Positions 2,944 to 15,869 of a DNA stretch of 21,008 nucleotides are shown here, piece by piece. The position numbers and the translations under genes are program-made. This stretch comes from a virus. The notes beneath the pieces were generated by a model. That model worked only from the letters and a program-made list of their open reading frames with translations. It searched no databases and was not told the origin of the DNA. The stretch's first letter is position 1; every line of letters starts with the position of its first letter. The DNA lies in the IMG/VR virus record IMGVR_UViG_3300017957_000097, positions 1-21,008 of that record; one strand, 5' to 3'.

Positions 2944-3176
2944 GCGGCACAACTTGGCTTCTGCGCTTTGGCGATAAGGATTGGCGGCACCACGTCCACA
3001 AAGCAGCGCAGGATTGGAAATTCAGGGCCACTCTCAAACCGCGGCTAGATCGCGAGATTGAGGATTGGCATAAAACCCAACCTGCTGCGGGGCCGCCACC
3101 AATCATCAGCAGCGATGAGCTGCGCATATCTGCACCCTGGGCCACCGATGAGCAACCCGGCACCGATCAGTCTTGA
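2940..3176 (+). CDS. -1 frame extension lacking its own start codon
   Basis: After the slippery site the -1 frame is open from 2940 to TGA 3174-3176, adding 78 residues to the upstream 45. It contains no ATG, GTG or TTG codon, so it cannot be started conventionally. The translation looks like real protein: charged, with four DW or EDW steps (GDKDWRHHVHKAAQDW, REIEDW) and a proline-rich stretch (PAAGPPP) near the end. The frame overlaps the endolysin start by 29 bases, like other overlaps here. A fusion product would be a 123-residue protein with an N-terminal membrane helix and a soluble charged domain. Competing explanations are a homopolymer error (A8 for A9) or a broken gene. No homologue is recognised. 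Confidence 0.45.
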   Translation, partial: VGGTTWLLRFGDKDWRHHVHKAAQDWKFRATLKPRLDREIEDWHKTQPAAGPPPIISSDELRISAPWATDEQPGTDQS

Positions 3177-4227
3177 GCAGCTGTTTCGCTACTACAAGGC
3201 GCTGCCCCACCAGGCCGCGGCAATTAAAGAACTAGAGGCCGACCTAGAGGCCAACGGCTACGAAACGGCAATGCGCCGTGATCGCGGCTGGTTCCAGACT
3301 TGGAGCCAAGACGGCAAGCAAGCCAATTTGGCTGCAGCCATCGCGCTGATTAAAGAGTTCGAGGGCGTGCACCTGAGCGCGTACCCGGACCCGCTAAGCG
3401 GCGATGAGCCTTGGACCATTGGTTACGGAACCACGCGCTACAGCGGCGGCGTGCCGGTCAAGCGTGGCGATCGGATCACGATCATCGAAGCCGACATGTT
3501 GTTGCGGCTTGAGGTGGACCGCATCGCTGAGAAGCTGCGGGCCAGCGTGCCGTTCTGGAAAGAGATGGACGACAACCAGAAGTCGGCTCTGGTGTCGTTC
3601 GCCTACAACCTCGGTTCTGGTTTCTACGGCTCTGGCGGATTCGAAACGATCAGCCGCTGCTTGAAAGAAAAAGATTGGGCCGGAGTGCCTGCAGCTCTGG
3701 AGCTGTACCGCAACCCTGGCACCAACGTCGAGGCTGGCCTGCTGCGGCGGCGCAAGGCTGAAGGCAAATGCTGGGGCAAACATCGGCCGCAGTATCAGCA
3801 GCAGACCGCGAAGCTGAGCATTGATGCGCCATTTACGGCCAGGATGACGCCGCACATCACCTTGGGCGAATTTGCGCTCGGTCAAGAGGCGCGGCGGTTT
3901 GTTCGTGCCGATCAGCTAGAGATCGCCGCTGAACTGGCGGCATTCCTGGAGCGGGTGCGCGTGGCGTTTGGCGGCAAACCCGTCATCATCACCTCCGGCT
4001 ATCGACCGCCTTTGATTAATGCCGCGGCAAATGGGGCTAGCAACAGTGAACACCTCTACAAACCCGGTTGTGGTGCGGTTGATTTCTACATCGATGGCGC
4101 CGACATCTACAAAGTCGAGGATTGGTGCGACAAAAACTGGCCCTACTCAATCGGATACGGAGCCGGTAAGGGCTTTGTCCATGTAGGCATCCGCAGCAGC
4201 AGGGCTAGGGTTCGCTGGGATTACTAA
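3148..4227 (+). CDS. Two-domain endolysin: GH24 lysozyme + peptidase M15
   Basis: This 359-residue protein degrades host peptidoglycan at the end of infection. Residues 1-60 are a helical N-terminal region of unknown role. Residues about 62-215 are a GH24 (T4-type) lysozyme with the catalytic Glu72 in KEFEG, Asp81 in AYPDP and Thr90 in WTIGYG, and with the conserved ALVSFAYNLGSG and GLLRRRKAE motifs. Residues about 233-359 are an M15-type zinc peptidase (peptidase M15_3/VanY-like) with TSGYRPP, His302 in NSEH, Asp312 in AVDFY and His345 in FVHVG as metal ligands. The protein should therefore cut both the glycan and a peptide cross-link. There is no signal peptide, so release needs a holin, and candidate genes lie directly upstream. 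I chose the ATG at 3148 because the frame extends upstream only through TTG or alternative codons and that stretch overlaps the -1 extension. ATG 3115 is the alternative. Confidence 0.9.
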   Translation: MSNPAPISLEQLFRYYKALPHQAAAIKELEADLEANGYETAMRRDRGWFQTWSQDGKQANLAAAIALIKEFEGVHLSAYPDPLSGDEPWTIGYGTTRYSGGVPVKRGDRITIIEADMLLRLEVDRIAEKLRASVPFWKEMDDNQKSALVSFAYNLGSGFYGSGGFETISRCLKEKDWAGVPAALELYRNPGTNVEAGLLRRRKAEGKCWGKHRPQYQQQTAKLSIDAPFTARMTPHITLGEFALGQEARRFVRADQLEIAAELAAFLERVRVAFGGKPVIITSGYRPPLINAAANGASNSEHLYKPGCGAVDFYIDGADIYKVEDWCDKNWPYSIGYGAGKGFVHVGIRSSRARVRWDY

Positions 4228-12778: not shown

Positions 12779-14821
12779 ATGGCACCCATCGTCGATCAGC
12801 TCTGCGCCATTCCCGACACCTGGGCGCTAGTCGCTGTAGGTAACGACAAACGCCCATATCAGCCCGAGTGGCAGAAACACCCGCTCACTAAACGCCAAGT
12901 CGAGGCCGAGCTATCCGCAGGCCGTGCCGTAGCTGTTGGCGTCCTAGCTGGCCCACCCTCAGGTGGCCTCCTATTCGTTGATCACGATGGCCTCGGCGCT
13001 TCAGAAGTGCTCGAATCCATCGGCACCTCACTCCGCGAACTCCCCAAATCCTGGGCCGTAACTTCCGGCCGGGATGGTCGCCTGCAAATCATCTACAGCG
13101 TCCCCGAACCCTTCTGGGATCAGATCAAAACCACCAAACTCAAATCCAGCATTAAAGGCGAACAGCTAGAGCTGCGCTGGACCGGCTGCCAATCCGTTGT
13201 GATCGGCAAGCACCCGATGACTGGCGCCTATCGCTGGCTCAAAGATCGCTCGCCCGCTGACCTCCCATTAGCCGAAGCTCCATCGGTGCTGCTGCAGCAA
13301 ATGCAGCGCCCAATCGAAACGCCACCTCTCCTGGCCGCGGCCAATCCAATCGAAGACGCCGAACGCGCTCGCACCTACCTAGCCAACATCCCCAGCTCAA
13401 TCGCGGATGACTACGACGAATGGGTCAAGGTCGGAATGGCGCTCCATAGCGTCGGCGACGATTCCCTCCTGGCTGATTGGTGCCAATGGTCCGCAGCGTC
13501 CGGCAAGTTCAAAGCCGGCGAATGTGAGGCCAAATGGGCATCCTTCAAATCTGATTCGGGTGGCATTGGCCTTGGCACTCTCTACCACCTGGCTGGTGGA
13601 GTCTCCCCGCGTGATCAGGCCATCAAGGCCATCAAATCTGCCCTCGGCACAAACAACCCCAAGGCGCAAACGATCGGCTCTGGATCTAAAGCCATCAAGC
13701 TTGAAACCGATGAGCTGATCCAACTGATCCAACAGCAAATGTCGGATCGGCTGCGCTTCAACACCTACACCCAAAAAGTCGAGCTAGACGAAAAACCCAT
13801 CACGGATATCGAGCACCGTTACCTCGAATTTGCCCAGATGGGCGTCAAGGTCGCCAAGGAGCTTGCCGCTGATTCCATGGTCTACGTCGCGCGCAAGAAC
13901 CCTTACGACCCCGTGCGCGAATACCTCGACCGCGTAGCCGATGAGGTGACCCCTGCCCCTATCGACCACCTAGCAAGCGCCTACCTGCGCCCTGGTGACG
14001 CCCCAGGCAGCCTGTATGACGCCATGCTCCGCTGCACCCTGATCGCCGCTGTACGGCGTGTCTACGAGCCAGGCAGCAAGCACGACAGCGCGTGCGTCCT
14101 GATGGGGCCGCAAGGCTGCGGCAAATCCACCTTTTGGCGCAACCTCGGCGGCGCGTTCTTCTCAGACGCGCTCCGCGACATCAACAGCAAGGACGACCTG
14201 ATGGTGCTCCATTCCAGCTGGGTTATGGAGTGGGCCGAACTCGATCACATCACCGGCCGCCGCCACGCTGGCCAGGTCAAGGCGTTTCTCTCTCAGCAGA
14301 CCGACAAGTTCCGCGTGCCATACGGCAAGGCTGCTGAGGACTTTCCCAGGCGATGCATCATCGTTGGCTCCACCAACCGCGACAGCGGTTTCCTGGTAGA
14401 TGACACCGGCAACCGCCGCTTTTGGGTCATACCCGTGACCGTTGCGCCCCACATCCCCGTTGATGGCCTGCTGCTTGAACGTGATGCCATCTGGTCTGCT
14501 GCTGTTGCCGCCTACCGCAATGGAGAGGCCAACCACCTGCCCCGTGAGCTTGAGCGCCAAGTGGAACTGGAGAACGAGAGCTACCTGGTTTCGAACCCGT
14601 GGCAATCCGCCATCGAGACCTATCTCACAAATCGCAGATCCGTCTCACCTTTGACATCAGAAGAGATTCTCACCAACGCAATCGAGAAACCACTGGAGCG
14701 CCAAACCAAGGGGGATCAGATGCAGGTGGCATCCATTCTCAAGGATCTCGGTTGGGTCAAGTATCGAGACTGCCAAAACGGCAAACGCCAGTACGCATGG
14801 CGTATGCCCAACCTTGCCTGA
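12779..14821 (+). CDS. Prim-pol + VapE/VirE-like ATPase replication protein
   Basis: This 680-residue protein combines primer synthesis and a helicase-like motor. Residues about 1-170 are a primase-polymerase (prim-pol/AEP) domain with FVDHDG (Asp68, Asp70) and the SGRDGRLQIIY and ELRWTGCQSVVIGKHP motifs. Residues about 190-275 look like a PriCT_2-type linker (YDEWVKVGMALH, GLGTLYHLA). Residues about 375-600 are a VirE/VapE-type P-loop domain with Walker A GPQGCGKST (443-451), the Walker B-like MEWAELDHI (483-491), and STNRDSGFLVDDTGNRRFWV (531-550) as the sensor/arginine-finger stretch. A short winged-helix-like C-terminus follows. It likely starts replication at the phage origin. Its 3' end forms a hairpin, and an unusual AT-/G-rich region follows. 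Confidence 0.88.
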   Translation: MAPIVDQLCAIPDTWALVAVGNDKRPYQPEWQKHPLTKRQVEAELSAGRAVAVGVLAGPPSGGLLFVDHDGLGASEVLESIGTSLRELPKSWAVTSGRDGRLQIIYSVPEPFWDQIKTTKLKSSIKGEQLELRWTGCQSVVIGKHPMTGAYRWLKDRSPADLPLAEAPSVLLQQMQRPIETPPLLAAANPIEDAERARTYLANIPSSIADDYDEWVKVGMALHSVGDDSLLADWCQWSAASGKFKAGECEAKWASFKSDSGGIGLGTLYHLAGGVSPRDQAIKAIKSALGTNNPKAQTIGSGSKAIKLETDELIQLIQQQMSDRLRFNTYTQKVELDEKPITDIEHRYLEFAQMGVKVAKELAADSMVYVARKNPYDPVREYLDRVADEVTPAPIDHLASAYLRPGDAPGSLYDAMLRCTLIAAVRRVYEPGSKHDSACVLMGPQGCGKSTFWRNLGGAFFSDALRDINSKDDLMVLHSSWVMEWAELDHITGRRHAGQVKAFLSQQTDKFRVPYGKAAEDFPRRCIIVGSTNRDSGFLVDDTGNRRFWVIPVTVAPHIPVDGLLLERDAIWSAAVAAYRNGEANHLPRELERQVELENESYLVSNPWQSAIETYLTNRRSVSPLTSEEILTNAIEKPLERQTKGDQMQVASILKDLGWVKYRDCQNGKRQYAWRMPNLA

Positions 14822-14831
14822 CCAGGTTGGG
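14807..14831 (+). terminator. 8-bp hairpin over the primase stop codon
   Basis: CCCAACCT (14807-14814) and AGGTTGGG (14824-14831) pair perfectly around a 9-base loop containing the TGA at 14819-14821. There is no T-run, so termination is uncertain. It could protect the 3' end of the replication message or act on the DNA. Confidence 0.45.
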
Positions 14832-14873
14832 AGCTGAGATCCACGGTCCCTATTGCCTTCTCCCTATCTCCTT

Positions 14874-14978
14874 ACCTCCTAACCTCTTAGAAAGAATATA
14901 AATAAATAGAGAGAGAGGGGGGTATAGGGGCCTAAATACCTAAGTGTTAGGGGGGGGGTCGGGTTGGGTTGGGTTGGG
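14874..14978. other. Structured non-coding region: inverted repeat, AT island, GA tract, G-quadruplex
   Basis: A pyrimidine tract (about 14855-14888) is followed by an AT-rich island AGAAAGAATATAAATAAATA (14890-14909), then GAGAGAGAGGGGGG (about 14909-14922). Outer arms pair: 14875-14883 with 14946-14954 (one G-U), and CTTAG 14886-14890 with CTAAG 14940-14944, giving an imperfect 14-bp stem around the island. A nine-G run (14950-14958) and GGGTTGGGTTGGGTTGGG (14961-14978) form a strong quadruplex sequence. The region lies right after the replication protein and before the packaging genes. It could be an origin, a regulatory site or a recombination site. I see no gene in it. Confidence 0.55.
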
Positions 14979-15006
14979 CACGGCTTGCGCCTCCTACCCT
15001 GGGGAC

Positions 15007-15675
15007 ATGGGCAGCATCACCCTCGACGCAGACCTATCAGGCGCCATCAACTGGTCGGCCTCAATCGCGCGGCAAATGCCGTTCGCCACGTCTCACGCGC
15101 TCAACCGCACGGCCTTTGACATCCGCCAACAGCTCAACCACGAGACCGGCAGATATTTCGATCGCCCCACCCGTTTCACCCAAACCGCCTTCCGCGTTGA
15201 CAAGAGCACCAAGCAGAACCTCACCGCGCTGATCTACGCCGAGGATCAACGGGCCAGATATCTGCGCTTTGGTGTCGATGGCGGCTCACGCCCCCAGAAG
15301 GGATTTGAACGCAAGTTCCTAGGCCTGACCGCTCCGACGATCTCACCCAACGCTCAGCTGCGCCCTACAGGCGCTGTAAGGCGCAATGCAGCGGGCAACG
15401 TGGGCCTCGCCACCCTTCGCAACATCAGCGAGCGCAGAGCGACCAAGGGGCACCGCAGCGTGATGGTTGGCCGCCCCACTGGTGGCGCTAGACCCCCAGG
15501 CATCTACGAACGCACAGCACGGGGCAAGCTGCGCCCGCTGTTCATCGCCACCACCACGCGGGCTAGGTACACACCACGCTTGCCGATGTCGGATATCAGC
15601 ATGAAGATCGCCGAGACCCGCTGGATGGACTACCTGATGAGCAGCTTGCAGCAGGCAATCGCTACCGCCCGCTGA
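15007..15675 (+). CDS. Phage morphogenesis protein, minor tail protein Z-like
   Basis: This protein has 222 residues from the ATG at 15007; the frame opens earlier, but that part reads the G-rich repeat. It shows PFATSHALNRTAFDIRQQLN, then RYFDRPTRFTQTAFRVDKST, which is the 'a.alNrTa..v+........fdrPT.fT..a....' start of tail-completion/minor tail Z-type proteins. RYLRFGVDGGSRPQKGFE, NVGLATLRNISERRATKGHR and FIATTTRARYTPRLPM follow. It is basic overall. It probably has a structural or assembly role in the tail or head-tail joint. Placement ahead of the terminase genes instead of within the tail cluster is notable. The family name is tentative. Confidence 0.5.
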   Translation: MGSITLDADLSGAINWSASIARQMPFATSHALNRTAFDIRQQLNHETGRYFDRPTRFTQTAFRVDKSTKQNLTALIYAEDQRARYLRFGVDGGSRPQKGFERKFLGLTAPTISPNAQLRPTGAVRRNAAGNVGLATLRNISERRATKGHRSVMVGRPTGGARPPGIYERTARGKLRPLFIATTTRARYTPRLPMSDISMKIAETRWMDYLMSSLQQAIATAR

Positions 15676-15869
15676 AATCCCTTGCGCCGCAACGGGTCTC
15701 AGCCGTCGAGGTCGCGGGTCCTTTCGGCCTCAAAGCCTGCGGGTCGTTCGTGCGCGCGTTGTTGGGGTAGGTGCGGGGTGGGAGGTTTGTGAGTCCCTGA
15801 GGTGCACTTTCCCCCTCCCCCGTTATTATTTAGGGGCATTTAATTGACATTAAGTCGCAATAAGGCTGG
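15676..15869. other. 194-base non-coding gap upstream of terminase; candidate packaging-site region
   Basis: There is no gene here. CGGGTC occurs three times in the same orientation (15693-15698, 15715-15720, 15740-15745), at 22- and 25-base steps; the last two share GCGGGTC followed by a T-rich TTCG-like end. In lambda-type phages the cos site with repeated small-terminase binding sites lies just before the small terminase gene, as here. Also present are a C-tract (CCCCCTCCCCC at about 15811-15821), an AT-rich patch with TATTAT (15824-15829) and TTGACA (15844-15849). No well-spaced -35/-10 pair is seen. Confidence 0.4.

Follow-up and report, generated by a model that had tools for sequence, protein, structure and literature searches.

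The window analyzed here is a 21,008-nucleotide stretch of viral DNA (IMG/VR record IMGVR_UViG_3300017957_000097, positions 1 to 21,008) whose left part carries RecT, exonuclease, helicase, VRR-NUC and PrimPol/VapE primase genes and whose right part encodes tail, terminase, portal and head functions. The primase gene (12779..14821, + strand; Pfam PF09250, PF08707 and PF05272) encodes a replication initiator made up of a PrimPol domain, a PriCT-2 domain, a VapE-type AAA+/SF3-like helicase and a C-terminal winged helix (approximately residues 607-675). Between its stop codon (TGA, 14819-14821) and the ATG of a minor tail gene (15007..15675, + strand; phrog_1924, E = 7e-47), which lies outside the module described below and was used as a control gene, there is a 185-bp spacer (14822-15006), and the start of terS follows roughly 0.97 kb downstream of the AT-rich core of this spacer. 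The contig is an incomplete 21-kb fragment, and the genome may hold further origins elsewhere. The host is probably picocyanobacterial, judging only from the nearest isolate, Synechococcus phage S-LBS1, whose primase is 49% identical; matches from the GTDB genome scan are MAG contigs of doubtful binning.

The initial annotation of the spacer listed a stop-codon hairpin, a pyrimidine tract, inverted arms and a G-quadruplex as separate elements. They are real, but most of them amount to a single feature, namely copies on opposite strands of an iteron with core AGGTTRG. The hairpin joins CCCAACCT (14807-14814) to AGGTTGGG (14824-14831) over 8 of 8 bp across a 9-nt loop, beginning within the primase gene and thus ahead of the start originally given for the region; its arms are iteron-like copies in inverted orientation that span the stop codon (14807..14831), and a perfect pair of at least 6 bp is found there in 108 of 157 relatives, against 8% expected by chance. 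The pyrimidine tract is present at 14846-14888, and its actual nature is that of a tight left iteron array with an 8-bp period (CTCCCTAT, CTCCTTAC, CTCCTAAC and CTCTTAG; 14860-14890, - strand) that aligns across relatives and has a reverse-complement unit close to TTAGGAGG, with core AGGTTAG. The AT island (14887-14910), a probable DNA unwinding element, has the highest AT content of any 24-bp stretch in the contig: its value of 87.5% is reached by only 2 of 20,984 contig windows, both in the spacer, and by none of 2,000 order-1 Markov 185-mers. The description of its flanks as imperfect 14-bp inverted arms is fair but loose, the best pair (14845-14874/14903-14932) being 70% complementary. The reported GA/G tract is found at 14909-14922, on one side of the core, and together with a GTATAGGGG block (14909..14930, + strand) it marks the polarity of the module when forward and reverse-complemented inverted modules are aligned. 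The right iteron array (GTTAGGGG..., CGGGTTGGGTTGGGTTGGG; 14946..14978, + strand) has a 5-bp period and contains the GGG runs spaced by TT, CGGGTTGGGTTGGGTTGGG at 14960-14978, preceded by a G9 run at 14950-14958; relatives show AGGTTGG(G/C)-type units at 9-10 bp spacing. The iterons of the window are themselves so degenerate that a generic detector fails to tell them from shuffles (20/200), and the case for an origin therefore depends on relatives.

Protein scans of IMG/VR and a scan of GTDB yielded approximately 300 loci, of which 284 include the region 3′ of the primase, providing 157 distinct 150-nt spacers that fall into 36 clusters when the primases are grouped at 85% identity. Scanning IMG/VR for an exact pattern returned no match, and a DNA search of the spacer against named phages gave nothing beyond one 25-bp match at chance level. 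Iterons, an AT-rich core and opposite iterons are found in the spacers of the 36 primase clusters, with primase identities to the window of 53-83% outside its own cluster. In the window and its relatives alike, the spacer begins at the primase stop codon. The order of elements comprises, often, an inverted pair over the stop, then a tight array of about 8 bp (e.g. CTAACCTTCTAACCTT), the AT-rich core, the purine/G tract, in many cases a CTATAGG- or CTCCTA-like block, and finally an opposite array with a 9-10-bp period (e.g. AGGTTGGCAGGTTGACAGG). The core, with 72-100% AT over 18 bp, is present in all cluster representatives. Two observations had been proposed that would count against a functional site: absence of the elements in close relatives and assembly errors in the G-runs. 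The architecture is kept in all intact relatives, and assembly error is excluded because the G-runs recur in independent contigs (L001, L002, L004, L006, L013 and others).

Forward-type relatives also share a semi-conserved block, AGATCC-N-(C/T)TGC...GCAG, located some 20-50 bp past the primase stop and outside the tight array, and inverted modules carry it likewise; it is possibly a third, putative, protein-binding site. The contig of one relative (IMGVR_UViG_3300009124_000071) breaks within the spacer, into an apparent Nextera adapter (CTGTCTCTTATACACATCT), and the contigs of several others stop close to the putative origin. A 73,028-bp record contains two primases of the window's primase family 46 kb apart, one in the gene order of the window (67% identical) and the other in a different gene order (56%), and it represents either two replicons or a joined contig.

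The repeat units differ among lineages, including AGGTTRG, AGGTAGGAAAG (L065 and L074), GGAAC (L050), AGTAGGG (L032), tandem GGTAGG (L135) and GGTTAGACGG (L240), but despite these differences the left and right repeats remain reverse complements of each other. We assessed this covariation by counting the k-mers that the reverse-complemented left arm shares with its own right arm and with the right arms of other clusters. With 8-mers, sharing was 2.09 for the own arm vs 0.85 for other arms over 23 clusters, a difference matched in 13 of 20,000 permutations; with 6-mers and 49 clusters, 2 of 20,000 permutations were as good. An earlier permutation test on 16 clusters had been suggestive only (22-72 of 5,000), and the signal became strong once more divergent relatives were added. 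Because own arms share more k-mers than swapped ones, the pattern does not stem from independent decay of an ancestral inverted repeat.

In 10 of the 36 clusters (L090, L240, L242, L256, L258, L260, L274, L278, L296 and L301) the whole module is inverted, so that the tight array comes after the core, on its right, and a C tract at the left corresponds to the G tract. Nine of these modules, once reverse-complemented, align with forward ones, including core, G tract and blocks, and the tenth (L260) was recognized by eye; the order of tight array, G tract and loose array is preserved. The orientation of four clusters (L041, L050, L151 and L260) was assigned by eye from the alignment, automatic calls being wrong, and the trees use the corrected labels. 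Tolerance of inversion would be expected of an origin but not of an RNA element, a terminator or a promoter.

The closest solved structure to the initiator, by sequence (E = 1.2e-34) and by fold (E = 6.6e-14), is PDB 7pds, 'PriRep1 with dsDNA', establishing its homology to the SaPI Rep/PriRep helicases. An initial AlphaFold model had a pLDDT of 57, and a deeper alignment for residues 303-680 raised it to 76, with the helicase core still weak. In model m91f06e02e92f the winged helix appears as three helices and a two-strand wing (H-H-H-E-E), with block pLDDT mostly between 76 and 90. In a set of 81 primases, spacer similarity tracks the identity of the last ~70 residues once the contributions of the helicase and the N-terminus are removed (partial r 0.49; none of 2,000 permutations), compared with a partial r of 0.10 for the helicase when the C-terminus is removed instead. 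Where a homologous tail gene follows (51 loci), the partial r is 0.51 for the primase C-terminus and only 0.08 for the equally close tail gene, so physical linkage alone is rejected as the main cause.

Individual lineages illustrate this association. The body of the L090 primase resembles those of L065 and L074 (85% identity over residues 1-150, 91% over 430-560), but its C-terminus is only 35% identical to theirs and 74% identical to that of L240, and L090 repeats and orientation are of the L240 type. The L240 helicase is in turn L239-like (95% over residues 430-560), with 46% identity in the C-terminus and repeats that are different and inverted. Between L050 and L088 the helicases are 99% and the C-termini 54% identical, and the iterons are GGAAC and GGTAGG, respectively. 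In phylogenetic trees, L090 groups with L065/L074 by body and with the inverted group by C-terminus, and the body tree needs four orientation changes vs two on the C-terminal tree. AU tests reject trees that keep the C-termini grouped with the relatives of their bodies (p = 0.002 and 4e-7), p-values that are descriptive, since the groups were named after the identities had been seen. As read from these comparisons, the natural swaps (L090; L240/L242; L050 vs L088) are exchanges of winged helix and array together, and the best explanation is that the C-terminal winged helix of the primase is the predicted reader of the iterons.

Considering jointly the conserved architecture, the covariation of left and right arrays, the inversion of the module, and its inheritance and swapping with the primase DNA-binding domain, we consider it highly probable, from sequence evidence, that the region at ~14807-14978 is the replication origin of a tailed phage, forming a rep-ori unit with the primase-helicase immediately upstream. 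In this scheme, the winged helix at the C-terminus of the PrimPol/VapE protein would bind the iterons (core AGGTTRG) in the two inverted arrays, and the AAA+ helicase domains would assemble at both sides, probably as two rings, with one assembly per inverted array. The AT-rich core would then melt, allowing the helicases to load onto single strands and presumably depart in both directions, with the PrimPol domain supplying primers. Of the three functions that the initial annotation had contemplated, that of an origin is thus strongly supported, and those of fork control or recombination site are disfavored as a conserved function. GC skew, which had been put forward as a check, is compatible with an origin but not decisive. 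Skew in the gene-order group of the window is negative on the left side and turns positive between about +1 and +6 kb, and the cumulative minimum of the contig falls at 15500-15750, at the tail/terS junction, ~0.7 kb to the right of the core. This minimum shifts with terS in relatives: because the sign switch follows the terS start (L306 and L307) and is missing in lineages L315-L320, GC skew is not counted as evidence. As regards DnaA boxes, the pattern searched for, TTWTNCACA, occurs nowhere in the contig.

Several other roles for the spacer can be entertained. If the primase or another regulator bound the repeats to control the primase's own or late genes, the region would be an operator rather than an origin. 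Iterons commonly autoregulate, here copies extend across the stop codon as well, and the replication genes are set apart from the tail and packaging genes by the spacer. Nevertheless, no sigma-70-like promoter is detected in 14600-15200, the initiator gene lies 5′ of the site and the module occurs in either orientation; furthermore, an operator needs no AT-rich core, yet the core is present in every cluster, making this reading very unlikely. The proximity of terS and terL could likewise point to a packaging site (cos/pac) read by the terminase. We deem this extremely unlikely, given that the spacer and the primase of the window are 88% and 96% identical to those of L004/L304 while terS and terL are only 28% and 49% identical, that L315-L320 possess the module but no homologue of the window's tail, terS or terL genes in the 15-20 kb fetched, and that the repeats track the primase C-terminus.

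The 8-bp hairpin across the stop codon would suit a transcription terminator or a structured RNA closing the early operon, but there is neither a T run nor a terminator-like site, no Rfam match comes near the gathering score, a 207-nt strand taken as a whole folds no better than shuffles (z = +0.60, DNA parameters), and the module is inverted in 10 clusters; the chance that it acts in this manner is very slim. Equally improbable is that a G-quadruplex or telomere-like element here governs fork progress or recombination. The four TT-spaced GGG runs are the sole G4 motif of the contig on either strand, with a chance expectation of ~0.25% per 185 bp. The telomere-like form, (GGGTT)2GGG, is however restricted to the window, L001, L002 and L004, that is, to 4 of 157 spacers, all in the window's cluster, and any + strand G4 motif is found in just 6 of 36 clusters; relatives have 9-10-bp iterons at that place. 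The right array of the window has shrunk to a 5-bp period, GGGTTGGGTTGGGTTGGG, which gives it the appearance of a telomere-like G-quadruplex. Judging from the aligned spacers, the quadruplex proposed in the initial annotation as an element in its own right is a variant of the right array peculiar to one lineage and not a conserved function.

The proposed origin resembles several characterized replicons. The C-terminal domain of SaPI Rep recognizes iterons directly downstream of its own gene, and that of SCCmec Cch2 binds repeats in the same location (PMC7581432). The origins of PICIs consist of two iteron sets around an AT-rich region 3′ of rep, and pri-rep-ori segments replicate in replicon tests (PMC6092414). 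The window shares with SaPI/PICI rep-ori units the location directly 3′ of a primase/helicase initiator, an AT-rich core bordered on either side by iterons and a PriRep1 (7pds) homologue, and on the basis of this likeness and of the homologous initiator we class it as that kind of origin. PICIs are satellites that lack a full structural set and depend on a helper. The contig of the window, in contrast, encodes its own terminase (terL), a portal, a head protease, tail proteins and, for lysis, an endolysin, and is not classed as a PICI. It differs as well in that PrimPol is fused to the helicase, the left and right arrays diverge in consensus and period, and the module occurs in both orientations. 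With SCCmec Cch2 it shares a self-loading helicase that uses its C-terminal domain (in the window, by prediction) to bind short repeats immediately past its gene, but the SCCmec system has a separate CCPol-MP primase complex, three iterons only and a D5-type helicase (PMC7581432), where the window has VapE. P4 alpha is also a fused primase-helicase-origin-binding protein with an iteron origin (PMC4234260, in part), but with a TOPRIM primase in place of the PF09250 PrimPol found here; no second iteron cluster akin to P4 crr was seen in the window's contig. The ORF904 replicon of pRN1 combines PrimPol, helicase and C-terminal winged helix with an origin region directly 3′, but requires a stem-loop of ~100 nt and is devoid of iterons (PMC4234260), whereas here there are iterons and no exceptional stem-loop. 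A pRN1-type stem-loop origin was rejected on the basis of the folding result given above.

Further support comes from named phages. At the same place, the spacer of S-LBS1, a phage cultured on Synechococcus sp. TCC793, presents a textbook arrangement: three copies of CCTAACCTA, an AT-rich stretch and four copies of AGGTTGGGC. A text search of the S-LBS1 paper found no origin or repeats reported (PMC6157547). The 'complete' S-LBS1 record (MG271909) ends with 127 nt that exactly repeat its putative origin region (2762-2888 and 3016-3142 of the fetched locus), a length that suggests a k-mer assembly stop in a repeated origin, or else a real tandem origin. Six distant named phages were scanned as well; in five of them, the top-scoring window for inverted repeats and AT richness within the 5-6 kb fetched lies directly 3′ of the primase, with scores there vs elsewhere of 31 vs 2 in Marinobacter phage PS3, 30 vs 4 in APSE-2, 14 vs 2 in Evtepia phage NatCom_11697, 5 vs 2 in Javan405 and 4 vs 0 in RcPescado. 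The first three are the most distinct, and the 6-mer score of RcPescado is not significant vs shuffles. With the same detector, no AT-rich core between inverted repeats was found 3′ of PrimPol in cyanophage S-2L (3165-3523 of the fetched locus), which has a related primase. This phage uses 2-aminoadenine in place of A, and an AT-rich melting site may therefore not suit it.

In the open literature searched, we found no precedent for such an origin in autonomous cyanophage-like and other phages, for its inversion, or for the joint exchange of winged helix and array. We regard it as somewhat more likely than not that winged helix and iterons make up an exchangeable and invertible 'origin cartridge' swapped to alter origin specificity, and that inverted-iteron origins of the PICI type are general to autonomous phages with VapE-type primase-helicases and no PICI hallmark. 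The organization of PICI origins has been stated to be common to no other known bacterial replicon (PMC6092414), a claim that these results counter, as they do the generalization that a large stem-loop serves as origin in PrimPol/SF3/winged-helix phages, stem-loops having been proposed generally for such phage proteins (PMC4234260). In practical terms, an AT core between inverted repeats 3′ of the gene enables origins to be found from sequence in uncultivated phages with VapE-type primases, and the natural swaps of the last ~70 residues with their repeats provide ready-made specificity experiments on the recognition code of self-loading helicases.

A separate conserved box, C(C/T)TACCCTTGG-N3-ATG, is located at 14993-15009, directly where the first tail gene begins, and occupies the same place in most forward-type relatives. 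It has no evident Shine-Dalgarno sequence and occurs about once per 15-20 kb locus, almost exclusively at the tail start, and is possibly a translation or late-transcription signal.
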